32,839 bases of DNA, from positions 1 through 32,839 of the forward strand of contig CALVSM010000004.1 of the NCBI GenBank assembly GCA_944359025.1, written 5' to 3'. Shown piece after piece: positions 1-26,922 of this stretch. The stretch comes from an uncultured Bacilli bacterium (GTDB taxonomy: Bacteria > Bacillota_I > Bacilli_A > RF39 > UBA660). Positions within the stretch are counted from its first letter, which is position 1. Each line of letters opens with the position of its first letter. The notes beneath the pieces are model-generated. The model was not told the DNA's origin and did no database searches. It saw only the letters and a program-made list of their open reading frames with translations. The position numbers and the translations under genes are program-made.

Positions 1-150
1 TATTATTTGTATGTTCCACGTGAAACATTATTATTTGTATGTTCCACGTGAAACATTATTATTTGTATGTTCCACGTGAAACATTATTATTTGTATGTTC
101 CACGTAAAACATTATTATTTGTATGTTCCACGTGAAACATTATTATTTGT
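1..150. repeat. parS: Tandem array of parS-like sites, 28-bp period
   Basis: Five complete 28-bp units plus a 10-base partial sixth start at the first base of the window, so the array probably continues to the left. Each unit is an AT-rich linker of 12 bases and a 16-bp site TGTTCCACGTGAAACA, at 12-27, 40-55, 68-83, 96-111 and 124-139. The fourth site has one change (CACGTAAAAC instead of CACGTGAAAC). The 16-mer equals the known Bacillus ParB (Spo0J) parS consensus. Known parS sites are usually single and scattered around the origin, so a close-packed array is odd. There is no unique spacer between copies, so it is not a CRISPR. Role as a centromere for chromosome segregation is inferred from the motif and the position near oriC. 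Confidence 0.92.
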
Positions 151-154
151 ACGT

Positions 155-186
155 GCCTTTACAATTAATAAATTAATGGTAAAGGC
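155..186. repeat. Near-perfect 32-bp palindrome beside the parS array
   Basis: Bases 155-169 and 172-186 are inverted copies of each other (15-bp arms, one mismatch at 163/178) with a two-base centre. The arms begin GCCTTTAC and end GTAAAGGC. No T-run follows on either strand, so it is not a normal intrinsic terminator. It could extrude as a cruciform or form an RNA stem. Function is unknown. Confidence 0.75.
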
Positions 187-208
187 CTAATTCCCTAAGG
201 AATTAGGC
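185..208. repeat. Second perfect hairpin sharing two bases with the first palindrome
   Basis: GCCTAATTCC (185-194) and GGAATTAGGC (199-208) form a 10-bp perfect stem with a CTAA loop. It starts within the last two bases of the preceding palindrome. Without a T-run on either side it is a poor terminator candidate. The rest of the gap to gyrA (209-359) is AT-rich, contains one relaxed DnaA-like box TGTGGAAAA at 234-242 and a short palindrome at 289-305, and has no ORF that I can support. Confidence 0.7.
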
Positions 209-359
209 AATCTACTCTAAACTTCGATTATACTGTGGAAAACTTTTAAAATTTTTTTCGATTTTTAAAATTGGTTTGATTTTTTTACTCAATTTTAAAA
301 ATTGAACTATTTTTATTCCATATTTTATTATTTTCATTTTTATTTTTAAATTTTAATGT

Positions 360-392
360 AAAAAAAGAATCTAATTTTCTTCATTAGATTCT
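360..392 (-). terminator. Intrinsic terminator overlapping the gyrA stop codon
   Basis: On the minus strand AGAATCTAAT (383-392) pairs with ATTAGATTCT (366-375) around a 7-base loop and is followed by a run of T (360-366 on the complement). The TAG stop of gyrA (371-373) lies inside the 3' arm of the stem, so the last codons of gyrA also encode the terminator. Confidence 0.9.
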
Positions 393-2815
393 TCATTTTC
401 ATCTTTTTCCTTTTCAATCATTGCTACAGTAGAAACTTTTTGATCATCTTTCAAATTTATCAACTTAACACCTTGTGCTATTCTTCCAGTAGAAGAAACT
501 TGTTCAATTGGTAATCTAATAATTACCCCACTATCAGTAATAATCATCAAATCTTCATCATCATGAACAGTTTTAAATGATACAATATTACCATTTTTAT
601 CTGTAATATTTAATCCTTTTACACCTTTACTACCACGATGTGTCATGCGATACTCTTCGACATCAGTTTTCTTACCATAACCCTTTTCAGTTACGACTAA
701 AATCTTTTGACCTTTTTCAGCTATTTCACAACCAACAGCTTTACCATCACCTAAATCAATACCCCTAACACCTGAAGCAGTTCGACCCATAACTCTAATT
801 TCATTTTCATTAAACCTAATCATTCTACCATTTGAAGAAGCAATAATTATTTCATTTTCTCCATTTGTTTTCTTAACATCTATTAATTCGTCATCTTCTT
901 TTAAAGTAATAGCAATTTTACCATTTGTTCTAATATTTTCAAATTCACTCAAGTTTGTCCTTTTAACTAGGCCTTTTTGTGTACAAAATACAACATATTT
1001 ATTATTCTCATCATTGCTTACTTTTAACATAACTTTAACTAGTTCATCTTTATCTAAAGATAATAAATTAATAATTGGTAACCCTTTAGAATGACGACTA
1101 TACAAAGGAACTTCATAACCTTTTACGCGATATACTTTACCTTTATTAGTAAAGAATAACAAATAATCATGAGTAGTCATAGAAATAATATTTTCGACAA
1201 AATCATCTTCATTAGTACTCATTCCTTTAATACCTACTCCACCTCTATTTTGAGTTTTATAAGTATCAGTAGTCATACGTTTAATATAACCTTTATTAGT
1301 TAAAGTAATAACAATATCTTCGACAGGAATTAAAGATTCATCTTCAATATATTCAATAGCTGTCATATCGATATTAGTACGACGCTCATCGCCATATTTA
1401 TCTTTAATAGCTAATAATTCTTCTTTAATAATGTTATAAATTTTTTCATCACTATTTAAAATCGCTTTCAATTCATCAATTAATTCTAATAATTCTTTTA
1501 ATTCTTCTTCAATTTTACTTCTTTCTAAACCGGTTAATCTTCTTAATTTCATTTCTAAAATCGCATCAGATTGAATATCCGAAAGACCAAAACGACTCAT
1601 TAATTCTTGTTTAGCAATAACATCACTTTCTGAATTACGAATAATTTTAATCACTTCATCAATATTATCTAACGCTATTTTATAACCTTCTAAAATATGA
1701 ACCCTTTTTTCAGCTTTATCTAAATCAAATTTAGTTCTTCTAATAATAACTATTTTTTGATATTCGATATATTTAGAAATTATTTCTTTTAAATTTAAAA
1801 TTTTAGGTCGGCCATCATCTAACATTAAAAATATAATACCAAAATTAGTTTGTAATTGCGTATGTTTAAATAAATTATTTAAAACAACATTAGCATTCGC
1901 TTCTTTTTTCAAAGTAACGACTAATCTAATTCCATTTTTTAAATTACTTTCATCATGAAGATCACTAATACCATCGATTATTTTTTCACGAACAAGTTCG
2001 CCAATTCTCTCTTGTAAAGCTTTTTTATTAACTTGATAAGGTAATTCAGTAATAATTATTTGATTTTTATTATTATTTTCAACTATTTCAACCTTACTAC
2101 GGATAGTGATAGTACCTCGTCCTGTTTCATAAGCTTTTTTAATACCATTATTTCCCAAAATAGTTGCTGCAGTTGGAAAATCAGGACCTTTAATATATTC
2201 CATTAATTCCGGTATAGTTATGTCGTTATTATCGATATAAGCAACACAACCATCGATTACCTCACTTAAATTATGTGGGGGAATATTAGTAGCCATACCA
2301 ACAGCAATTCCCATCGTACCACTTACTAAAATATTAGGAAATCTACTAGGTAAAACAACAGGTTCTTTAGTTGTATTATCAAAATTAGGTTCAAAATCGA
2401 TTGTATTTTTATTAATATCACGCAATAATTCTAGCGATAATTTAGAAAGACGGGCTTCCGTATAACGATAAGCAGCGGCGCCATCGCCATCGATTGAACC
2501 AAAGTTACCGTGTCCTTCAACTAAAACATAACGATAACTAAAATCTTGTGCCATTCTTACCATCGCATCATAAACGGAAGTGTCACCATGAGGGTGATAA
2601 CGTCCTAATACCGCACCAACTGTTGTAGCACTTTTTCTAAATGGTTTATCAGGCGTTAAATTGTCCTCATACATTGTGTATAATATACGTCTATGAACCG
2701 GTTTTAAACCGTCTCTTAAATCTGGTAAAGCACGCGATACAATAACACTCATTGAATAATCAATAAAAGATTGTCTAACTTCATCAACTATATTTCTTTT
2801 TTCTAATTTATCCAC
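371..2815 (-). CDS. gyrA: DNA gyrase subunit A
   Basis: Cuts and rejoins DNA for ATP-driven negative supercoiling, as an A2B2 complex with GyrB. At 814 residues it has the usual length. The catalytic tyrosine is Y118 in the RYTEAR motif, preceded by GDGAAAY. The quinolone-resistance region reads [10 protein letters not shown] (74-83), with Thr79 where E. coli has Ser83 and Asp83 where it has Asp87. The C-terminal beta-pinwheel carries a GyrA-box variant, [10 protein letters not shown], which favours GyrA over ParC, and ends in an acidic Glu/Asp/Asn tail. The start is GTG, set by a strong AGGAGGTGA Shine-Dalgarno and by the conserved N-terminus. It lies 13 bases after gyrB as the last gene of the recF-gyrB-gyrA operon. 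A perfect DnaA box covers the start codon, and the stop lies in a terminator stem. Confidence 0.97.
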
Positions 2816-5978: not shown

Positions 5979-6003
5979 ATAAAATAGGTAATTAACCTAT
6001 TTT
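5971..6003 (-). terminator. Terminator overlapping the stop of the ComK-like gene
   Basis: On the minus strand AAAATAGGT (5995-6003) pairs with ACCTATTTT (5981-5989) around a 5-base loop, followed by ATTTGTTTTT. The TAG stop at 5997-5999 is inside the 5' arm. Confidence 0.8.
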
Positions 6004-6467
6004 AAAATACTTTTTTTAGAAAAATTTTTTCTTTTTTTCAACTTCATTAATAATAATGTTGCCCGCATAATTTGATTTTCTAATGAATTAAAAGAAATAT
6101 TTAACTCTAAATTAAATTTATTAATAAATTTAATTTTAGCAGTTTTTTTATATTTTTCATAATTATCAATATTATTAACACAAATCCATATACATTTATC
6201 AGATTTTGGTGAACAAGTGGGAAAAATAACAACTTCTTTAATTTCATCCACAATAATTGGTAATTTATAGTCCATATTCAATAATCTTTTAGAACCAACA
6301 TATCGACCTTGATAATTACTTCCATAATATTGACAACTGATATCGACTATTTCTGAAACACTTTTTTTAATAGTATAAGTACCATTAATATCATAAATAC
6401 GTGTTTTATTTTTACCAAATGGCATTATTAATAAAGTATCATTACTAATATAATACTCATCAATCAT
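5997..6467 (-). CDS. comK: ComK-family competence transcription factor
   Basis: Likely DNA-binding activator of the ComK family (master switch of competence in Bacillus). I recognise it from family-like blocks: IVDISCQYYGSNYQGR (40-55) against the Bacillus IVDRSCRFFGSSYAGR, PIIVD (70-74), IFPTCSP (81-87), CIWICVNN (92-99) and ISFNSLENQIMRA (124-136) against ISYNSFENQVYRT. At 156 residues it is shorter than the 192-residue Bacillus protein; the loss is at the C-terminus, which is instead Lys-rich. It starts with ATG behind AGGAGG. It sits between dnaN and recF, where Bacillus has the S4-domain gene rlbA/yaaA, and appears to be a single-gene transcript with its own promoter and terminator. Whether it controls DNA uptake here is unproven, since no com genes are in the window. 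Confidence 0.82.
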   Translation of the reverse strand: MIDEYYISNDTLLIMPFGKNKTRIYDINGTYTIKKSVSEIVDISCQYYGSNYQGRYVGSKRLLNMDYKLPIIVDEIKEVVIFPTCSPKSDKCIWICVNNIDNYEKYKKTAKIKFINKFNLELNISFNSLENQIMRATLLLMKLKKRKNFSKKSILK

Positions 6468-9200: not shown

Positions 9201-9430
9201 TTTGTTTCATCTATATTCTACCTTATTTTAATAAAAAACGCTACAAAAATGTGGAAAAATATTAAAAAAAAATAAAATTCCACAGCTAAAAACAGTTTAA
9301 ATTACTGGGAAATATTAATTATCCACATTTTTGTGGATAATTTTATACACATTGTCTAAAAATTGTTAATAAAATATTCCACAATTGTTAATAAAAATGT
9401 GGATAACTTTTTAAAATGTGGAATTTTAAT
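9201..9430. other. oriC: oriC, dnaA-rpmH part: DnaA box cluster
   Basis: Perfect DnaA boxes lie at 9319-9327 (TTATCCACA), 9332-9340 (TGTGGATAA, forming an inverted pair four bases from the first) and 9398-9406. One-mismatch boxes are at 9250-9258 (TGTGGAAAA) and 9343-9351 (TTATACACA), with weaker ones near 9375 and 9417. Together with the dnaA-dnaN cluster this makes a bipartite origin flanking dnaA. There is no ORF in the gap. The stretch TACTGGGAAATA at 9303-9314 includes a Noc-type half-site, noted without a functional claim. Confidence 0.8.
9215..9243 (-). promoter_or_regulatory. Candidate dnaA promoter
   Basis: TAGAAT (minus strand, 9215-9220) is a good -10; the -35 (TAGCGT at 9238-9243, 17-base spacer) is weak. 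The relaxed DnaA box at 9250-9258 lies next to it, consistent with autoregulation, which is common for dnaA. Confidence 0.45.
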
Positions 9431-16174: not shown

Positions 16175-16176
16175 AA

Positions 16177-16222
16177 TTATTTCCCAAAACCTCTTGCATT
16201 ATTTCCCAAAATATAGTATCAT
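16177..16222 (+). promoter_or_regulatory. noc promoter with a 13-bp direct repeat spaced by 22 bp
   Basis: TTGCAT (16194-16199), 17-base spacer and TATCAT (16217-16222) form the promoter. TTATTTCCCAAAA occurs at 16177-16189 and 16199-16211, two helical turns apart; the second copy fills the spacer. The TATTTCCC part equals one half of the Bacillus Noc-binding palindrome TATTTCCCGGGAAATA, so autoregulation by the Noc-like product is plausible but not shown. Confidence 0.6.
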
Positions 16223-16255: not shown

Positions 16256-18061
16256 GTGCAAACAGAAAGAAAAGTTGTTGAATTAAATATTGCTGATGTG
16301 TTACCTAATAGGTTTCAACCAAGAATAAAATTTGATGAAAATTCTATTAACGAATTAGCTTTGTCAATAAGAAAATATGGCGTAATTCAACCTATAGTAG
16401 TTAGAAAAATAGGAGATAAATATGAGATAATTGCTGGTGAGAGAAGATATAAAGCGAGTGTTATTGCGGGAAAACAAACGATACCAGCTATCATATCAGA
16501 AATGAACGATAAAGAAAGTGTCGAAATAGCTTTAATTGAAAATGTTCAAAGAGAAGATTTAACCCCTATTGAAAAAGCAATATCATATAAAAAAATATTA
16601 GATATGGGTTATATTAGTCAAGAGGAATTAGCTAAAAAAGTTGGGAAATCTCAATCTTCTATTGCTAATACTCTTCGTTTATTAAATTTATCTGATGATG
16701 TTCAAGAAGCATTATTAGAAAATAGAATTTCGGAAAGACATGCACGCTCACTATTAAAAGTGAAAGATGAAACTAAACAAGTTGAAATGTTAAATAGAAT
16801 TATAAATGAACGTTTGACCGTTCGTAAAACAGATGAGGAGATTGATAAAATGTTAAATGAAAATTTAAATAATAATACTTTTACTCAAGATGAAGTTGTT
16901 CAAATACCTGATGTAGCTCAAGTTCCTGATATTGAATTAAGTGATATTGATACAACACAATTACCAGGTTTTATGGATATTGATAAAATAGAACAAACAG
17001 CTAAAGATATAACTCCTCAAGAAAAACCTATTGCGAATATGGACGAATTATTAAAACCAACTGCTGCTGAATTGACACCGGAAATAGAAACTCAAGAATC
17101 TAAAGAACCACAAGGAAAATTCTTTAACTTTTTTGACGAAGAATCTACCAAAGAAAATTCTCAAGCAAGTGACTTTAATTTAGAAAATTTCTTTAGTAAT
17201 ATGGATGATAAAGGCGTTGAACAACCTTTATCGTCATCAACATCTGAAGTACCAAGTGTTTCAGCTGAACCAATAATGCCGGAAGAACCTCAAACACCTG
17301 AAGTACCAAGTATTCCAACTGAACCAATAATGCCGGAAGTACCACAAGCACCTGAAATACCAAGTATTTCAGCTGAACCAATAATGTCGGAAGTACCACA
17401 AGCACTTGAAGTACCAAGTGTTCCAGCTGAACCAATAATGCCGGAAGTACCACAAGCACAAGAAATACCAAGTACACCAGCTGAACCAATAATGCCAGAA
17501 GTACCACAAGCACAAGAAATACCAAGTACACCAGTAGAACCAGTAATGCCGGAAGTACCACAAGCACCTGCAGTACCAAGTACACTAGTAGAACCAGTAA
17601 TGCCGGAAATACCACAAGCACCTGAAACACCAAGTATTCCAGAAGAACCAATAATGCCAGAAGTGCCACAAGCACAAGAAACACCAAGTATTCCAGCTGA
17701 ACCGATAATGCCGGAAATACCACAAACACAAGAAACACCAAGTACACCAGTAGAACCAATAATGCCGGAAATACCAACAGCTCCTATTGATACTACTCCA
17801 CTATACGAAGTACCAATTGCTGAAGATACTGAAAATGTTCCAACAATCGATGGAAATAATAATGTAGAACAACCAGTTAATAATATTGCTGAACAAAGTA
17901 ATGAACCAGCAATAAGTGCTATTGCTCCTAATTTACGACTTGCTTTAAATACAATTAGAGAATGTGAAGGAACATTAGAAAAATATGGTTTTAATATTGA
18001 TGTTGAAGAAATAGATTTTGAAGATTCATATCAAGTAATCTTTAAAATAGAAAAAAAATAA
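16256..18061 (+). CDS. noc: Noc-type ParB/Spo0J-family DNA-binding protein with Pro-rich repeats
   Basis: CTP-dependent DNA clamp family (chromosome segregation or nucleoid occlusion). The N-terminal domain has PNRFQPR (17-23), the CTP-binding GERRYKA (61-67) and ENVQRED (95-101). The helix-turn-helix domain runs about 120-165. The C-terminal domain, LALNTIREC...FEDSYQVIFKIEK (562-600), resembles that of Bacillus Noc, and the gene sits in Noc's place after rsmG. Residues at the ParB/Noc specificity positions are Gln133, Thr139, Asn144 and Arg161; Noc has Q-K-K-R and ParB R-T-A-G, so it is mixed. The N-terminal membrane-targeting helix of Bacillus Noc is missing. An acidic linker and ten 18-residue repeats (332-511) make it 601 residues, about twice the usual size. 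GTG start behind AGGAAGGGG. No parA/soj or spo0J follows; transcription ends at a shared terminator. Confidence 0.9.
   Translation: MQTERKVVELNIADVLPNRFQPRIKFDENSINELALSIRKYGVIQPIVVRKIGDKYEIIAGERRYKASVIAGKQTIPAIISEMNDKESVEIALIENVQREDLTPIEKAISYKKILDMGYISQEELAKKVGKSQSSIANTLRLLNLSDDVQEALLENRISERHARSLLKVKDETKQVEMLNRIINERLTVRKTDEEIDKMLNENLNNNTFTQDEVVQIPDVAQVPDIELSDIDTTQLPGFMDIDKIEQTAKDITPQEKPIANMDELLKPTAAELTPEIETQESKEPQGKFFNFFDEESTKENSQASDFNLENFFSNMDDKGVEQPLSSSTSEVPSVSAEPIMPEEPQTPEVPSIPTEPIMPEVPQAPEIPSISAEPIMSEVPQALEVPSVPAEPIMPEVPQAQEIPSTPAEPIMPEVPQAQEIPSTPVEPVMPEVPQAPAVPSTLVEPVMPEIPQAPETPSIPEEPIMPEVPQAQETPSIPAEPIMPEIPQTQETPSTPVEPIMPEIPTAPIDTTPLYEVPIAEDTENVPTIDGNNNVEQPVNNIAEQSNEPAISAIAPNLRLALNTIRECEGTLEKYGFNIDVEEIDFEDSYQVIFKIEKK
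17249..17788 (+). repeat. Ten tandem 54-bp repeats inside noc
   Basis: Ten in-frame copies encode the 18-residue unit typified by IPSTPAEPIMPEVPQAQE (protein positions 332-511). Copies differ at a few positions (for example Ser in place of Pro in the third), so the expansion is not brand new. The unit is Pro/Glu-rich and probably an extended, disordered spacer. The opposite-strand ORFs across it are an artefact of the repeat. Confidence 0.95.
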
Positions 18062-18101: not shown

Positions 18102-19292
18102 TTATTCTAATTCTTTTTCAATTAGCTTTTTATAAGCGGTCACGCCAGGTTGATTGAAAGGGTTAACATTTAATAAATAGCCACCTGTCGCTGCTGCAAC
18201 TTCAAAAAAATATATCAAAGTTCCTAAATTATATTCATTTAGTTCATCAATTAAAATTATATTACTTTCAATATCGGCATCTAAATGTGCAAAGGCAACT
18301 TGTTTTAAAGCTATCATATTGATATCTTCAATATTTTTCTTAAGTAAACTACATTTTAAATTACCTTTTTTTTCTATTCCAATAACAGTTTCAAAAATAA
18401 TTGGGTTTCCTTCTTGATAAAATTGCCCAAGCGAATGTAAATCTCTAGTATTATTAGAAGCAATTGGTAAAATGCCATTTTTATTTTTACCTTGAGTTTC
18501 GCCAAATAATTGCTTAAGCCATTCGGCAAAATATTCAAGTTTTGGTTCGTAGAAGGTAAAAGATTCAACTAATTTTCCTTCATTATATAAAGTATCTCTT
18601 ATAATAGCATATTTAAAAGCTTGATCAATATTACAATTTCTCGCTCCTAATAAAAGTTGGTCAATATCGATTCCCGCTACACTAATAGGTAATAGTCCAA
18701 CAGCTGTTAAAACGGAATATCTACCACCAATTTGTTCAGGAACAACAAAAGAAGGATAATTTTTTTGTTTAATCAATTCTCTTAAACTGCCTTTTAAAGG
18801 GTCAGTTGTAATAATAATGCGTTTTTGTAATTCATCAGTACTATATTTTTCCTGCATTTTTTTATATATTAAATCGAAAGCAATGCTAGGCTCTAAAGTG
18901 GTACCAGATTTAGAAATAACATTAACATAAGTATTTTTGTTTTCCATATATTTTAGTAATTCTATTAAATATTGTTCCGATAAAGAAGTGCCAGCAAAAA
19001 CAATTTCGGGTTTATTTTTTATAAAATAAGGACTTAATGCTGTAATAATTGCTTTTGCTCCTAAAAACGAACCACCTATACCGATAATGATAAATAATTC
19101 GGCATCTTTTCTAATATCATTACTTAATTTTTTAATTTTAGTTAGTTCTTCTTCTGTAATACATTTATCGATATCATACCAATCTAGCATTTCGCCACCA
19201 TTATTAAGTTTTATTTTAATATCTTTAATTTTTTCTTCATATGATTGATAATTTTTATTTTTAATATAAGTAGAAAAATCAGTTTTTAACAT
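18102..19292 (-). CDS. pgi: Glucose-6-phosphate isomerase
   Basis: Interconverts glucose-6-phosphate and fructose-6-phosphate in glycolysis. At 396 residues it is about 50 shorter than the Bacillus enzyme. Visible are the substrate-loop IIIGIGGSFLGAKA, the phosphate-binding NVISKSGTTLEPSIAF, the first signature PEQIGGRYSVLTAVG, and the C-terminal NPFNQPGVTAYKKL with the expected Lys. The C-terminal signature has Thr where Glu is usual. ATG follows TTAGGAGG; the start overlaps the end of the glucan synthase by 14 bases, so the two are translationally coupled. Together they link hexose phosphate supply with glucan synthesis, as inference. Confidence 0.95.
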   Translation of the reverse strand: MLKTDFSTYIKNKNYQSYEEKIKDIKIKLNNGGEMLDWYDIDKCITEEELTKIKKLSNDIRKDAELFIIIGIGGSFLGAKAIITALSPYFIKNKPEIVFAGTSLSEQYLIELLKYMENKNTYVNVISKSGTTLEPSIAFDLIYKKMQEKYSTDELQKRIIITTDPLKGSLRELIKQKNYPSFVVPEQIGGRYSVLTAVGLLPISVAGIDIDQLLLGARNCNIDQAFKYAIIRDTLYNEGKLVESFTFYEPKLEYFAEWLKQLFGETQGKNKNGILPIASNNTRDLHSLGQFYQEGNPIIFETVIGIEKKGNLKCSLLKKNIEDINMIALKQVAFAHLDADIESNIILIDELNEYNLGTLIYFFEVAAATGGYLLNVNPFNQPGVTAYKKLIEKELE

Positions 19293-22200
19293 TTTTACCT
19301 CCTAAATTAACCGTAACATTGTGAATTTTTTCATCATTAATTAAAGGAATATAATCTTCTTTAATTTTTTTACCATCTAATATAATAGTTTTTTTACCAG
19401 TAAGGTTAATTGTTATATTATAAGTTGTGTTGTGGTATTTATAAGTTATAGTATACTCTTGAAAATCATCTGGTAGATGGGGGTTAATATATAATTTATT
19501 GCCTTGTTTATTAAAGCCTAAAATATCAATTAAACCAACGCGGTAAAACCAACCGGCACTACCAGTGTACCAACTCCAACCACCTTTGGCTTTAAAATTA
19601 TCATTACTATAGATATCAGCTGCGATGACATATGGCTCAAGTTGATATGTATCACAATCATTTTTGGTTTTAGTTCTTTCAATCGGGTTAATCATTTGAA
19701 AAATACGATAAGCTTCATCATAATTACCAGTTTTAATTAAAGCTTGAATATACCAAGCAACAGCATGCGTATATTGTCCACCATTTTCTCTAATACCTTC
19801 AGGATAATTCATAATATATCCAGGGTTATCTTTGTTTTTATTAAAAGGTGGCCATAATAATTTAACGATATTTAAATTTTTATCGACTAATTTTTTATCG
19901 ACATTATTTAAAATAGAGGGTATTTGATTAGAATCGGCAATATTTGTTAAAATAGCAAAACTTTGGGAAATTAAATCAATTTGACATTCTAAATTATCTT
20001 TAGAACCTATTTTAGAACCATTGTCGAAGAAAGCTCTTAAATAATATTCGCCGTCCCAAGCATTATTTAATAAAGCATTTTTAAGATTTTTATTAAATTC
20101 TTTCCATTCTAAATCTTTAAATTTTTTATTATGTTTTTTACTAAAATCGATAAATTTTTCAACTATTTGGTATAAGAAAAATCCTAACCAAACACTAGTG
20201 CCTAAACCTTTTTCGCCAACTTTATTCATTCCGTCGTTCCAGTCTCCCCCTCTAATAAGTGGTAGACCGTTTGTTCCGATTTCTTTTTTGGCTAATTCTA
20301 AAGCTAGCAAACAGTGTTCATAAAGAGAAGCTGTTTTTTCAGTATAAGAAAATTCCATACCTTTTTCCATTTCTTTTTCTAAAAGTAAAGGGCCATCAAC
20401 AAAACATACTTGTTCATCTAATATAGTATAATCTTCAGTTATTTTTAAATATTCACTAGTAGCATAAACAAGCCATAGATAATCATCTTTATATTTAGAG
20501 CGTAGACCAAATTTGCTTTCTTTGTGCCACCAATGTAACACATCGCCTTCTAAAAATTGATGTTTAGCATTAATTAAAATTTGGTTTCTAGTTATTTCAG
20601 GATGAATTAAACAAATATTCATCGAATCTTGTAATTGATCGCGATAACCAAAAGCACCGCCAACTTGATAAAAACCAGCTTTAGCATAAAGTCTAGAAGT
20701 TATTGTTTGATAAGCTAACCATCCGTTTAACATATAATTAAAACTATCATCTTTAGTTTTTACTTGGATAACATCTAACATATCTTGCCAATAATTAGTA
20801 ACATTTCTTTCTTCATTTTTAATTTTATTAATTGAATTATATTCTTTTAATAATTTATCTACATTATCTTCAAAAGTAGCAGCTAAAATAAAACAAACTT
20901 CTTTTTCACTATTTTCTTTAATATCGATAGTTACTTCTAATTCTTTTGATAAAATTCTTTTAATATTTACATTTTCAATTGGTAAATTACAACTCATTAT
21001 AGTAACTAAATCAGAAAAATGTTGACTATATTTATTTTTTAAAATAATGCTATTTAAGTCTTTATTAAAGTCACTTAAAATATAACGACTAGTTTTCTCT
21101 TCCGTAACACCTAAACAAGGGTTTATCCAATATTTTAAATTGATTTTTTCATCTTTACCATTATTTTTAATTTTTAAAAGATAAAATTTAATTGGTTTAT
21201 CCGTTGCGACAAATTGCGTTAATTTAAGTTCTAAATTTTGATAATTGGCTAAAAAAGTTATTTTACCAAAAGTAATTTCTGATATTTGATATTTTAAATG
21301 AACATTATTTATTTTTATTCCTTCTGATAAATCTAATAATAAAGGATCATTTGTCCAAGAGGTTAATTTATATTCGCGACTATTTTTAAAATAAGTGAAC
21401 CCTGTTTGATTATTAGAAATGATACTACCAAAATCTTTATTTGCCAAAATATTACACCAAATTAAAGGCGTATCAGGGTTAGTAATAACATATTCTTTAC
21501 CATCATTACTAAAACCGCCATATTCGTTATAAAAACTTAAATTTTTAGGATATTTTATTGGTAAACTATCTTCTTTTTTAACATTTTCACTCCGACTAAT
21601 TGTATTTAATTTTTGTAAATCATTAACAAATTCTTCTAAAGAATGAAAATTATTACTGTTAATATAAATTCTAGCTGTTGTTTTAAATAAATTTATTTCA
21701 TCTTCATTAACATCATCAGGGTTAATTATATAAATATTTCCTGGAGTTTTATTGAAACTATTTAAAGCATACATATGGTATTTTTCATTGTCGATTTCTT
21801 CATTGATGATTTTTTTATCTTGTTCGATATAGCTATTTAAAATAATTAAATCGATAAAGATAGATTTACTTTTATAATATTCAAAAGCGTGTAATAATTC
21901 TTTTACTAAACTTAAGTTATCTAGACTTATTACTTCTAAAAAAACGATTGGACGGTCACCAGAAATACCAAATTTCCACAACCCTGTTTGATTTAAATGA
22001 TTATTTTTTAATATTTCTTTACGTTCGTTAGTGATACTGATATGACTAGTTTGATATAAATAATTAAGCATTGTATTATAAAGACGCATATCATGACCGG
22101 TAATATTGACCATTTTATTTGTAACATTACTCATAATTGTCGCTACTGTAAAAGCTTTTTCCATAATAATATCTGAATTAGAAAATGTTTTTACTATTTC

Positions 22201-25200
22201 TAATACTTGTTCTTTAGATTTACCAAAACCATTGATAAAATAAACTGTTTTCTCACTATTCGGTTTAATTTTAATGTTACTTCTTAAACTTATAATTGGA
22301 TCGATACATGTGCCCGTTTGATTACTTAATTTTTTATCCAAACCAACTGGGTTAGTACCATTATGATTACGGCCAATAAAGTTATTGCGATTAGTCTCGA
22401 AACTAATTTCATTATCCGTTAATAATTTATTTACCAAATAATAAGTCGTATCGTTATCTCTTAATTTACGGTGCATAATGACAGCTTTAGTATCTTCGTC
22501 ATATTCACTTTGGACAAATAGATTTTGAAAAGTTTTATGACTTATATCGTCCATATTCTCACTTAATATTGGTTCAGTATAAGTAGTTAATTCTAATAAT
22601 CTTTCTTTATCACTAGTATTTTTAAAAGTAATTTTTCTAATTTCCGCATGATGTGTTTTAGGCACAACTACTTCAGTAGTAGTAATAATATCATTATCTA
22701 ATCTAATGAATTTTATTTTATCTAAAGCAAAAACTACTTCGTATTTTTCCGGCATCTTATTAATTGGAGCATAGGTATTAGACCAAACTTTATTGCTATT
22801 TAAATCTTTAATATATAAGAAGATTCCATAATCTTGTTCAGTTATTTTACGATAACGATTTAGTTGAATTGTTCGATAACGACTAAAACCATTACCACGA
22901 TCATTCATAAAAACACTATATTTAGAATTAGATAAAACAGACACTTCTGGTAAAGTAGAAAGTTTGTGGAAAACACGGATATCATTGATAAATGTTTCTT
23001 TATCATAAGCATATTTTTTATATCTAGTTATGTTAACATCGATAATTGGTTTCAATTGAACTTTTTCTTTATTTAAAATTTCAAAGGCGTTGTTGTTAAT
23101 ATCATTAATAAAATATTTTTGAATAATATTATTTTTTAACGTGTTAGTAATGCTAGCTAAAATCATGCCTTGATGGTGCGCAAAATAAGAATAAACAACA
23201 GTTTTATCTTCTAAATCATAAGATTCATAAAAACCATATTTACCAATTAATTTTAATTTTTCTAATTTTTTCATATTAGTTAAAACTTCATTAGTAAATA
23301 AAGGTAACGCTAAAATAGAACTATATGGCGAAATAACGATGCGATTAGTAGATTCTTCTTGTAATTTTAAATAAGGTGTCGCAAAGGCTTTATATTTGTA
23401 ATTTTGTGAATCATCTAATTCATTATAAGCCGATTCAGAAATACCCCAAGGCATTTTTTTATTTACTTCTTTCATAAATTCTTTTTGGGCATAAAAAGCA
23501 AAATCATAACTTTCGTCGATTAAAGTATTATCATAAGTTGGAATAAAAATAAGCGGCATAAAATATTCAAAAGAAGTGCCTGACCAAGAAACTAAACCTT
23601 TTTTTCTTTTATAAGTTGTTAAAGTTTTATCTAAATTAAACCAATGTTTACTAGGAACGTCACCTTTAGCAATAGCTAAATAACTAGTAATTCTACTTTC
23701 ACTAGCAAATTTATTATAATTAAATGGTTCTAAAATACCTTCATCGACATTATATCCGATACTAAAAACATTATTATCATTATATAATTTAGCGAAGTCA
23801 GTATTTTCAATTATATTTTCTACTCTTTTAGCTAGATTTATATTGTTAATATCGTATAAAAATTCTTTAATTACAATTAAAGATGCTATTAAATTCCCAC
23901 TATCGACAGTCGATATAAAATGTGGCGTGATTATTTCTAATGTTGCGATACGATACCAATTATATAAATGACCGTACCATTTTGGTAATTTTTCTATACT
24001 TGTAATTATATTTTCCAAGTAATCATTAGTTTCTTTTTTATTAATAAAGCTTAATTCATAAGCTGATAAGATAGAAATTAAAGATAGACCGATATTAGTC
24101 GGTGATGTTTTATAGTCACTTTTCTTTTCTCTATTTAATTGATAATTATCAGGTATTAAATAATTATTTTCTTTTGTTAAATTTTCTTTGAAAAAATTCC
24201 ATGTTAATGTAGCAATATTATATAAATAATCATAATCATGTTTTTTAATTTTTTGTTTGCTTTTTTTAATATCGTCGCTTAAAGCATAAGCTAAAAATGG
24301 CGCAATTAAGAAAAATATTGCAATAATTAAACATTCTAAAGTGTTTTGACCGATAAAAATAGAAAATATAATTATCATTAAAGCGGCTAAATAATTTATC
24401 CAAAACTGTTTTAGATGGTTAGTAAGAGTAGTTTTAACTGTTTTAGCGGCATCTTCGGCAGTCATCCATTGTAATAAATGTTTTTTACTAATCATTCGAT
24501 AAATTGCTGTTATAAAAGATTTGATATATAAATAAGCATTATAAGGAATACAAGTAAAAACTGATAAAGTTCTTAAGATAAATGCTTGATAACCGAAAAC
24601 CATTATATTATAATATTTTAAATTTTTACTGTTTTTTCTTTGAATGGAAAATAATTGAATTATATAAGAAATAACTGGTAAAACTACTACAAAAATAACA
24701 AATAATAACCACCAATAAGGATGGATAATGGTTTTACAAGCTAAACAAAATAAAATTAACAATAAAGAAAAATCTAATAAACTTCTTCTAATATTATCGA
24801 TAATTTTAAATTTGCCTAATAAATTAATTGGGTTTTTATATTTTTTACCATTTACATCTTTTACTTTATTAAATATCCAGCCGATTATTTGCATATCTCC
24901 TCTTGCCCATCTAGAACGTCTTGTCGCGTCGACTAGAAATTTAGAAGGAAAATCATCAAATAATTCAATATCACTGACCACGCCACATCTTAAGTAATTT
25001 CCTTCTAATAAATCATGACTTAAAATAAGTTGGTTAGGAAATCTATCTTTTAAAATAGTTTGATAAACTTCTAAATCATAGATACCTTTACCGATAAAAC
25101 TTCCTTCATCAAAAACATCTTGATAAAAATTAGGTACAATAGTCGAATATGGATCTAAACCGCCAATTCCGGCAAATATTTGGGAAAATAAAGATTTATT

Positions 25201-26922
25201 TGTCGATTCGACATCGACACTAATTTTCGGTTGTAAAATTCCATAACCGTTAATAACTTTAGTTTTTTCTTTGTTTAAAATTGGTTTATTAATAGGATGA
25301 GCCATGGTTCCAACTAATTTTAAGGCGCTGTTTAAAATTAATTCAGTATCACTATCTAAAGTAATAACATATTTTATCTTATGTTTAAAATTAGCAAAAG
25401 TATGAATTTGAAACCATTTTTTCTTTTCTTCTTCGGTAAAATTATTTAAAATTAAATCATTAAAATGTAATAAAGCTCCTCTTTTTCTTTCAAAACCTAA
25501 AAAACTATTTTCACTTTCACTATAAAATCTTGAACGATAAGCAAAATAAAATATTTCTTCGCCATATTTTTTATTTAATTCTTTAACTTTTAAAACTCCA
25601 GCGTTTTTTATTTCCTCATCATTTTTAAACTTTTTAGATTTACATTCACAAGCATCACCAAGTAAAGTAAAATAAATATTTTTTGATTTATTAGCTAAAT
25701 AATAGGCTTCTAATTTTTTAAATATTTCTTCAACTTTTTCTTTATTTTTTAAAATTGTCGGTATAACCACCATTGTTTTACAATTTTTGGGGATACCTTT
25801 TTCAAAATCTAGTTTAGCTAAAGGTTTAGGTGGATAAAATTTAAGATATATTTTATTTAAAAAAGTTATGACAATTTCACTTGTTGGAATAATTAAAATA
25901 ATAAAACCTAACCATTTTAAATCGATAAAATAATTTGTTAAAAATAAAGTTAACAATATCGTAATTAAACTTATTAAAAATAGATAAATAATTGTCCTTG
26001 TTTTTAATTTGTTCTTTTTAAAAAGCAAATTACCAATATTTTGATCATTGTTAATTAATTTAAGCGCTAAATCATAAGGAGTTGTTTTATTTTTTTTAGC
26101 TTGCTTAATTAATTGATAACGATACATATTTTTCGTTTCTAAAGTCATCATATCGTAATATGGATCTTTATTTAATATTTTTTCAACGTCACAAAGATTA
26201 CGATTTAAGTTTTCTAATTCAATATTATCTATTTGTTTTAAACTATAAAATATGTTAGCAACTAAAATATTATTATTAGTATTACTTAAATGTTCTTTAT
26301 TGATGATATCTTTTAATGACATTTTTTTATTTTCTAATAATTTATTGAATTGTTTAAAAAACAAATTAGTATTGTTACCTAAATTTTTGATATTATCGTT
26401 AAAATAAGTAATGGCGAAAGAAGAATTATAAAAATCATCATATAGATAGTTAGCTAATTCAATTTTTTTAAATTTACTATCTTGTTTTAATTTGGCAATT
26501 AATTTTTCTATTTTTTCTTTTTCTTTTAACTCATTTTTTTCTTTTAAACAAACTTCACTTAATTTATCGATAAGAATAATTGCTAAAGTGATAGGTATAA
26601 TTTTAATTTCTTGATAGTTAAGATGAATCTTATTATTTTTACAATAATCTTTAATATTTTCAATTAAGGTTTCTTGCTCAATTTTATAATTTCTAAATTC
26701 TAAAATATGCTCTAAAATATTAATTAAATTGATATTTTTATAAAGATATTGATTTTCTTTTTTATTTTTATAAAATTGTTTGATATTATTTTCTTTTTCC
26801 GCAATTAAATAATAATTATCGACGATCCATTCATTAGTAATACCAATAAAATAATGTTGTTTAGTTATTTTAACTAATTCATTATAGTATTTTGTAATTA
26901 TTTTAAAATTGTTTTGTTTCAT
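19279..26922 (-). CDS. Cyclic beta-1,2-glucan synthase, three-module (GT84-GH189-GH94 type)
   Basis: Very large membrane enzyme (2547 residues) of the NdvB/Cgs type, which polymerises glucose from UDP-glucose into beta-1,2-glucan, cyclises it and trims its length. Residues 1-305 are soluble and helical. Membrane segments lie at about 309-330, 337-355, 718-757 and 846-882. Between the second and third is the glycosyltransferase with VITLDSDTEL (D523, D525), HDLLEG (636-641) and the RRSRWARGD motif (668-676). The middle domain has GHLYNWYRIATLEI and FISTVDSGNL (near 1000), as in the transglycosylase module of known synthases. Two supersandwich-type regions follow, and the C-terminus is a GH94 barrel with GGDWNDGMN (2225-2233; D2230 is the probable general acid). 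No frameshift is seen. It starts 27 bases after the DNA glycosylase gene, with a weak GGGA ribosome site. Such proteins are best known from Rhizobium, Agrobacterium and Brucella. Confidence 0.88.
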   Translation of the reverse strand: MKQNNFKIITKYYNELVKITKQHYFIGITNEWIVDNYYLIAEKENNIKQFYKNKKENQYLYKNINLINILEHILEFRNYKIEQETLIENIKDYCKNNKIHLNYQEIKIIPITLAIILIDKLSEVCLKEKNELKEKEKIEKLIAKLKQDSKFKKIELANYLYDDFYNSSFAITYFNDNIKNLGNNTNLFFKQFNKLLENKKMSLKDIINKEHLSNTNNNILVANIFYSLKQIDNIELENLNRNLCDVEKILNKDPYYDMMTLETKNMYRYQLIKQAKKNKTTPYDLALKLINNDQNIGNLLFKKNKLKTRTIIYLFLISLITILLTLFLTNYFIDLKWLGFIILIIPTSEIVITFLNKIYLKFYPPKPLAKLDFEKGIPKNCKTMVVIPTILKNKEKVEEIFKKLEAYYLANKSKNIYFTLLGDACECKSKKFKNDEEIKNAGVLKVKELNKKYGEEIFYFAYRSRFYSESENSFLGFERKRGALLHFNDLILNNFTEEEKKKWFQIHTFANFKHKIKYVITLDSDTELILNSALKLVGTMAHPINKPILNKEKTKVINGYGILQPKISVDVESTNKSLFSQIFAGIGGLDPYSTIVPNFYQDVFDEGSFIGKGIYDLEVYQTILKDRFPNQLILSHDLLEGNYLRCGVVSDIELFDDFPSKFLVDATRRSRWARGDMQIIGWIFNKVKDVNGKKYKNPINLLGKFKIIDNIRRSLLDFSLLLILFCLACKTIIHPYWWLLFVIFVVVLPVISYIIQLFSIQRKNSKNLKYYNIMVFGYQAFILRTLSVFTCIPYNAYLYIKSFITAIYRMISKKHLLQWMTAEDAAKTVKTTLTNHLKQFWINYLAALMIIIFSIFIGQNTLECLIIAIFFLIAPFLAYALSDDIKKSKQKIKKHDYDYLYNIATLTWNFFKENLTKENNYLIPDNYQLNREKKSDYKTSPTNIGLSLISILSAYELSFINKKETNDYLENIITSIEKLPKWYGHLYNWYRIATLEIITPHFISTVDSGNLIASLIVIKEFLYDINNINLAKRVENIIENTDFAKLYNDNNVFSIGYNVDEGILEPFNYNKFASESRITSYLAIAKGDVPSKHWFNLDKTLTTYKRKKGLVSWSGTSFEYFMPLIFIPTYDNTLIDESYDFAFYAQKEFMKEVNKKMPWGISESAYNELDDSQNYKYKAFATPYLKLQEESTNRIVISPYSSILALPLFTNEVLTNMKKLEKLKLIGKYGFYESYDLEDKTVVYSYFAHHQGMILASITNTLKNNIIQKYFINDINNNAFEILNKEKVQLKPIIDVNITRYKKYAYDKETFINDIRVFHKLSTLPEVSVLSNSKYSVFMNDRGNGFSRYRTIQLNRYRKITEQDYGIFLYIKDLNSNKVWSNTYAPINKMPEKYEVVFALDKIKFIRLDNDIITTTEVVVPKTHHAEIRKITFKNTSDKERLLELTTYTEPILSENMDDISHKTFQNLFVQSEYDEDTKAVIMHRKLRDNDTTYYLVNKLLTDNEISFETNRNNFIGRNHNGTNPVGLDKKLSNQTGTCIDPIISLRSNIKIKPNSEKTVYFINGFGKSKEQVLEIVKTFSNSDIIMEKAFTVATIMSNVTNKMVNITGHDMRLYNTMLNYLYQTSHISITNERKEILKNNHLNQTGLWKFGISGDRPIVFLEVISLDNLSLVKELLHAFEYYKSKSIFIDLIILNSYIEQDKKIINEEIDNEKYHMYALNSFNKTPGNIYIINPDDVNEDEINLFKTTARIYINSNNFHSLEEFVNDLQKLNTISRSENVKKEDSLPIKYPKNLSFYNEYGGFSNDGKEYVITNPDTPLIWCNILANKDFGSIISNNQTGFTYFKNSREYKLTSWTNDPLLLDLSEGIKINNVHLKYQISEITFGKITFLANYQNLELKLTQFVATDKPIKFYLLKIKNNGKDEKINLKYWINPCLGVTEEKTSRYILSDFNKDLNSIILKNKYSQHFSDLVTIMSCNLPIENVNIKRILSKELEVTIDIKENSEKEVCFILAATFEDNVDKLLKEYNSINKIKNEERNVTNYWQDMLDVIQVKTKDDSFNYMLNGWLAYQTITSRLYAKAGFYQVGGAFGYRDQLQDSMNICLIHPEITRNQILINAKHQFLEGDVLHWWHKESKFGLRSKYKDDYLWLVYATSEYLKITEDYTILDEQVCFVDGPLLLEKEMEKGMEFSYTEKTASLYEHCLLALELAKKEIGTNGLPLIRGGDWNDGMNKVGEKGLGTSVWLGFFLYQIVEKFIDFSKKHNKKFKDLEWKEFNKNLKNALLNNAWDGEYYLRAFFDNGSKIGSKDNLECQIDLISQSFAILTNIADSNQIPSILNNVDKKLVDKNLNIVKLLWPPFNKNKDNPGYIMNYPEGIRENGGQYTHAVAWYIQALIKTGNYDEAYRIFQMINPIERTKTKNDCDTYQLEPYVIAADIYSNDNFKAKGGWSWYTGSAGWFYRVGLIDILGFNKQGNKLYINPHLPDDFQEYTITYKYHNTTYNITINLTGKKTIILDGKKIKEDYIPLINDEKIHNVTVNLGGKNVKN

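Follow-up and report, generated by a model that had tools for sequence, protein, structure and literature searches.

What a phased array of parS sites is doing beside gyrA, and which protein reads it, is the question raised by the left end of a 32,839-nucleotide stretch of DNA (hereafter the window) from an uncultured Bacilli bacterium. Why a chromosome should carry many parS sites when one can suffice, and how their spacing affects the loading of ParB clamps and the collisions of SMC, are open questions, and parS number and spacing have been studied mainly with engineered arrays. We consider it highly probable (roughly 90%) that these sites make up the centromere of the chromosome, belonging to a canonical Soj-Spo0J-parS (ParABS) system and drawn together into a single satellite-like tandem row in the tadA-gyrA interval. 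Lying about 9 kb from oriC, the array would serve as a loading platform for Spo0J.

Five 16-bp parS sites occupy positions 12-139 of the window, with a period of exactly 28 bp over all four intervals (Table 1). The 12-bp spacers between them are all identical, TTATTATTTGTA, and the sites fit the 16-bp palindrome of chromosomal parS, TGTTNCACGTGAAACA. The sequence TGTTCCACGTGAAACA, carried by four of the five, has been called the optimal parS of B. subtilis (PMC8299390). The variant copy, TGTTCCACGTAAAACA, is probably a weaker site. When up to three mismatches were allowed on both strands, the window gave 11 parS matches, against a mean of 0.15 and a maximum of 2 in shuffled sequences. Outside the array, the same scan of the window gave nothing beyond one match with three mismatches at 17419. 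This string is not a parS; it is a by-product of the repeats that encode the linker of noc.

Table 1. Features of the window that bear on the parS array and its putative readers
Feature	Position	Strand	Remarks
Visible part of the parS array	12..139	+	28-bp period; AT-rich 12-bp spacers; open at base 1, resumes on contig C68
parS TGTTCCACGTGAAACA	12..27	+	Identical to the optimal B. subtilis parS
parS TGTTCCACGTGAAACA	40..55	+	Exact match
parS TGTTCCACGTGAAACA	68..83	+	Exact match
Variant parS TGTTCCACGTAAAACA	96..111	+	One mismatch, G-to-A in the CACGTG core
parS TGTTCCACGTGAAACA	124..139	+	End of the array on the gyrA side
Two adjacent inverted repeats	155..208	-	155-186 and 185-208; in the gap from array to gyrA; compared by eye
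DnaA-box-like TTTTCCACA	234..242	-	Adjoins the array
gyrA	371..2815	-	Array directly downstream
oriC (DnaA-box cluster)	9250..9406		Flanked by dnaA and rpmH/rnpA; array about 9 kb away
Likely Noc orthologue	16256..18061	+	ParB_N and HTH_ParB, Pro/Glu-rich repeat linker of about 320 aa, C-terminal domain

The assembly comprises 82 contigs (0.99 Mb, 72% complete), of which the window is C4. This whole genome was scanned for parS with up to one mismatch, and all matches were confined to a single array, split over C4 and a second contig, C68. The right end of C68 (3694-3821) carries five perfect parS in the same orientation and with the same 28-bp period as the window. The exact overlap between the two array ends is just 1 bp, and their spacers are unlike. 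This means that the ends do not truly overlap and that the genome holds at least ten parS sites, a lower bound, since both contigs break within the array. The preliminary description of this DNA had reported five sites, four of them identical, with 28-bp spacing and an open left edge, and no other parS in the window. Re-scanning returned the same coordinates and period, with the string at 17419 as the sole extra match. Two of the checks it had proposed, a leftward extension with a count of the units and a genome-wide search, gave the five further sites on C68 and the confinement to one array.

Leftward from the array, C68 carries tadA, a segment that by eye resembles an SRP RNA, dnaX, ybaB/ebfC and recR. 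The order on the chromosome is most likely recR-ebfC-dnaX-tadA-(array)-gyrA-gyrB-recF-(ComK-like)-dnaN-dnaA-oriC-rpmH-rnpA. The closeness of the array to oriC is seen within the window, where dnaA, dnaN and rnpA surround the DnaA-box cluster. The ComK-domain gene between recF and dnaN (5997-6467) keeps its position in most of the mapped family genomes. Between the array and gyrA, the two inverted repeats are likely to form a terminator or insulator of gyrA; by eye, their pairing is kept through compensating changes in four related genomes (G003, G010, G011 and G013), the sequences being unlike. In addition, the DnaA-box-like sequence that adjoins the array has a counterpart at the same spot, TTATCCACA in G003, G010 and G011 and TATCCACA in G013. 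DnaA boxes beside the array were seen in one sub-clade.

The position of the array is shared by its relatives. It adjoins gyrA in 17 of the 18 genomes of the genus; in the 18th (G016) gyrA is cut off and the locus is not assessable. A strict search for the 16-mer had suggested that ten of the 18 are without parS. This result was discarded, as the gyrA flanks show arrays in nine of them, the tenth being G016. In these nine arrays the outermost base of the site differs and the core is GTTYCACGTGRAAC. Complete arrays in the interior of contigs were found in four members of the genus, with 19 sites in G007, 13 in G015 (on a 111-kb contig), 11 in G009 and 7 in G017, and with periods mostly of 36-38 bp. 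In G012, one contig carries 15 sites and a second carries 11, and G002 has three only, 67-70 bp apart. As many as 26 sites were counted, within roughly 1 kb of array, and the units of the arrays are species-specific and mostly 27-38 bp long. In another genus of the same family, G047 carries ten sites, 37-38 bp apart, in the middle of a 297-kb contig. Furthermore, in all 28 further family genomes that were mapped (about 26 genera), parS sites adjoin gyrA and/or lie in the tadA-dnaX interval. The identity of the sites, the period and the arrays of the relatives agree with the preliminary view of a dense, centromere-like array. Helical phasing was considered as the purpose of the spacing and is not supported: the mean periods (about 27, 28, 34.5, 35.5, 36.7, 37.3, 38.5, 42, 43, 45.5 and 48 bp) have no common phase.

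The spacers are near-identical within a genome, and both their sequence and their length vary between species while the parS core stays. Because of this uniformity within genomes and difference between species, the arrays seem to expand and to be homogenised by tandem duplication, with selection keeping the sites and the spacers drifting between species. In structure and turnover, they resemble the satellite centromeres of eukaryotes. The copy number itself might still be without function. In some bacteria, segregation or ParA control requires no more than one parS (PMC7614844; PMC4368675). The large number of copies may thus lack a function and have arisen through drift by tandem duplication. 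The array could then be a selectively neutral satellite, to which slippage adds parS sites that give no gain over one. This explanation concerns the copy number and is compatible with the centromere reading; the wide differences in unit length and number among close relatives would fit it well. On the other hand, the cores are nearly perfect while the spacers diverge, and several genera of the family have arrays of at least seven sites. Of 242 family genomes, 36 contain three or more tandem core sites, compared with 1 of about 238 genomes from elsewhere in the phylum sample (odds ratio about 41, Fisher p about 2e-10, a p value that is only indicative, the genomes being related and not independent). 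The family count misses some genomes, because arrays break contigs. We regard neutrality of the copy number as unlikely, although it deserves some weight. It should be mentioned that the family can do without long arrays, as most of its members do not show three or more tandem sites of this pattern.

As for the protein that reads the array, the genome has a Soj-Spo0J pair on contig C19 (L248; Soj at 73-858, Spo0J at 839-1723), and an SMC gene is also present. Spo0J, a protein of 294 aa encoded directly after Soj, has the Arg/Gly specificity residues of the parS type, with the motifs KSRS and TMGHAR. Within the genus, all 18 genomes gave a match to Soj-type ParA, that of G004 being a fragment, and 17 of them have a Spo0J-like ParB of 293-294 aa. 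In G015, a single contig carries Noc, oriC, gyrA, the array and Soj-Spo0J. From its sequence, the Spo0J on C19 is most likely the parS reader of the array.

The preliminary description had suggested the product of 16256-18061 for this role; no other gene of the ParB family occurs in the window, and this one lies on the same origin-proximal segment. This assignment does not hold well. The gene comes after rsmG, which is the position of noc in B. subtilis as well, and Noc proteins are the best structural relatives of its product. All 17 genus orthologues recovered have Gln173 and Arg201 (Caulobacter numbering, by motif alignment), in the motifs GK(S/T)QS or QT and SERHAR. These two residues specify binding to the Noc sites (NBS), whereas Arg173 and Gly201 are absolutely conserved in extant ParBs (PMC7383237). 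The protein is likely a Noc orthologue and, most likely, is predicted to bind NBS rather than the parS array. Two features of known Noc proteins were looked for with negative results. When Caulobacter ParB serves as the background, NBS binding requires permissive lysines at positions 179 and 184 (PMC7383237); they were not found in the Noc orthologues, all of which have Thr and Asn there, and given their absence the DNA preference of the protein is not certain. Noc is also known to carry an N-terminal amphipathic helix for membrane targeting (PMC8429893). No such helix was found in the product of 16256-18061, in which ParB_N starts at residue 6 and leaves little room upstream, and a membrane function is not supported.

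The distribution of NBS bears on the same question. Of the 18 genus genomes, 17 contain the NBS core, three of them twice and the others once, and the core is not spread over the chromosome. In ten genus loci that were aligned (L262-L271), the exact core lies within rsmI, in the genome of the window at G000:C6:3117-3128 (L268 1501-1512), and it is always encoded through the codons TCC and CGG. In the genes of the window, TCC makes up 4.3% of Ser codons and CGG 2.2% of Arg codons. Because these rare codons are always used at this point, the DNA itself seems to be constrained. Where both lie on the same contig, the NBS core is about 6.5-7.7 kb from the parS array. In G200, whose parS array has at least 14 sites in 43-bp units, three perfect NBS, TATTTCCCGGGAAATA, are found within about 730 bp of the array (contig C6; L286 7012, 7106 and 7460). 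An NBS-binding protein is thus to be expected, and a separate Spo0J of the parS type exists. Binding of the array by the Noc-like protein, whether alone or jointly with Spo0J, would be favoured by its Thr and Asn at positions 179 and 184 as well as by its location, but against the evidence above we hold it to be quite improbable.

Two further explanations concern the origin of the array. It is very hard to believe that it is an assembly artefact or a collapsed repeat of one parS, the refutation that the preliminary description had proposed: both halves do lie at contig ends of a fragmented MAG, but real repeats longer than a read also give contig breaks, and the relatives carry arrays with non-identical units at the same place in 17 genus genomes, several of them contig-internal (contigs of up to 111 kb in the genus and 297 kb in the family), so that the array is taken to be real. 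The other is that the array is the remnant of an integrated plasmid centromere. The sopC centromere of the F plasmid consists of head-to-tail 43-bp units, about ten of them functional, with one binding site each (PMC7205306). The tandem head-to-tail layout with regular spacing is indeed common to both, the units of 28-43 bp resemble those of such plasmid centromeres, and the unit of G200 is also 43 bp. However, sopC is plasmid-borne with its own SopB specificity, while the array is made of chromosomal-type parS to be read by a chromosomal-type Soj-Spo0J, its tadA-gyrA position among housekeeping neighbours is kept over the family on chromosomal contigs of up to 297 kb and not beside plasmid parAB or rep genes, and a plasmid collection gave just four records with weak matches (E 0.06-0.8) to bare sites. 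A plasmid remnant is therefore scarcely credible. Of the preliminary comparison with plasmid arrays, the regular tandem layout stands and the location does not: the array is in the origin region of a chromosome, between gyrA and tadA.

Among chromosomal systems, the closest likeness is to B. subtilis. The parS sequence, the Soj-Spo0J gene pair and SMC are the same, and the gyrA/tadA/dnaX/recR and rsmG-noc neighbourhoods are similar. The difference is in the layout: B. subtilis has about ten parS scattered widely around oriC (PMC7614844, PMC8357415), and here there is one compact array. In most bacteria the parS sites fall within a stretch of 5-40 kb; it is in a few lineages, Bacilli among them, that they are typically widely scattered (PMC8357415). 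The preliminary statement that chromosomal parS are usually scattered single copies should be revised, since clustering is the commoner state. In Myxococcus xanthus, 22 parS of the consensus TGTTCCACGTGGAACG are placed over about 3.1 kb (PMC3899335). The presence of some 20 sites in one origin-proximal chromosomal stretch is shared with M. xanthus; in contrast to its 22 sites in about 3.1 kb, the arrays described here mostly consist of strict, near-identical 27-38 bp units, and about 1 kb holds as many as 26 sites. The deposited members of the genus and the family carry the names uncultured Bacilli or Tenericutes. As scattering is usual in Bacilli, the layout in this group is at odds with that of its class. 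When named species were scanned for at least three parS at 22-50 bp spacing, at least 119 contig stretches in many phyla were obtained, mostly with 3-6 sites, which shows short tandem groups to be common among bacteria. Examples of such short groups, among the matches listed, are from Streptomyces, Aquimarina, Massilia, Collinsella and Oligoflexales. Long arrays are rare among the matches listed: one has 23 sites at 43 bp in a Deltaproteobacteria MAG (L149), and another 12 sites at 42 bp in a Clostridiales MAG (L111). The array is an extreme tandem form of a known kind of ParABS, opposite to the usual scattered layout of Bacilli.

By analogy with studied ParABS systems, the array may plausibly be a high-affinity loading platform for ParB. 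Spo0J, not the Noc-like protein, would bind each parS, close as a clamp with CTP and slide off, so as to leave the site free for the next dimer. With at least ten sites in a few hundred base pairs, the rate of clamp loading would be multiplied at a single point, and a dense partition complex would be built at the array. Soj would then move this complex, leading to segregation of the origin, and SMC would be loaded from the same single point. An advantage of high copy number is suggested by experiments in vitro, in which 7, 13 and 26 copies of parS condense DNA with a force that grows with their number, whereas 1, 2 and 4 copies do not in the same assay (PMC8299390). In B. subtilis, arrays of 16 parS copies recruit ParB away from oriC (PMC7614844). 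Loading of SMC at several distant parS risks collisions, which loading at one place does not (PMC8357415). Since the risk is confined to distant loading sites, a single dense array might allow high ParB loading without multiple distant starting points for SMC.

The gyrA-tadA interval offers a natural series of arrays, from 3 to at least 26 sites with spacings of 27-70 bp, which overlaps the copy numbers (7, 13 and 26) that condense DNA in vitro. It amounts to a natural test of why the copy number of a centromere matters. As a tentative suggestion, which we rate somewhat below an even chance, the scattered parS usual in Bacilli might have been given up in this family in favour of a point centromere that is satellite-like and under concerted evolution, combined with no more than one or a few Noc sites in the same origin region. 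Spo0J and a Noc with a long linker and no helix would then both work from a single small locus and not across the chromosome. The small number of NBS per genome, together with the lack of a membrane helix, raises the question of what role Noc plays when its sites are not chromosome-wide.

Several minor observations were made. The repeated, Pro/Glu-rich linker of the Noc-like protein, about 320 aa here, differs in length between species. Upstream of noc, two direct repeats, TATTTCCCAAAA, lie about 22 bp apart over the likely promoter (16176-16215); they are strongly conserved in the genus and resemble NBS half-sites, and autoregulation may be their function. On contig C85 of G008 (L035 2732-3091), three perfect palindromic parS are found about 170 bp apart, next to an IS21-like istA/istB pair, and each of them is followed at a constant distance by the DnaA-box-like sequence TGTGGAWAA. 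Finally, the window contains a single ORF of 2547 aa (19279-26922) with membrane segments, glycosyltransferase-like by eye, and beside it a phosphoglucose-isomerase-like ORF (18102-19292).
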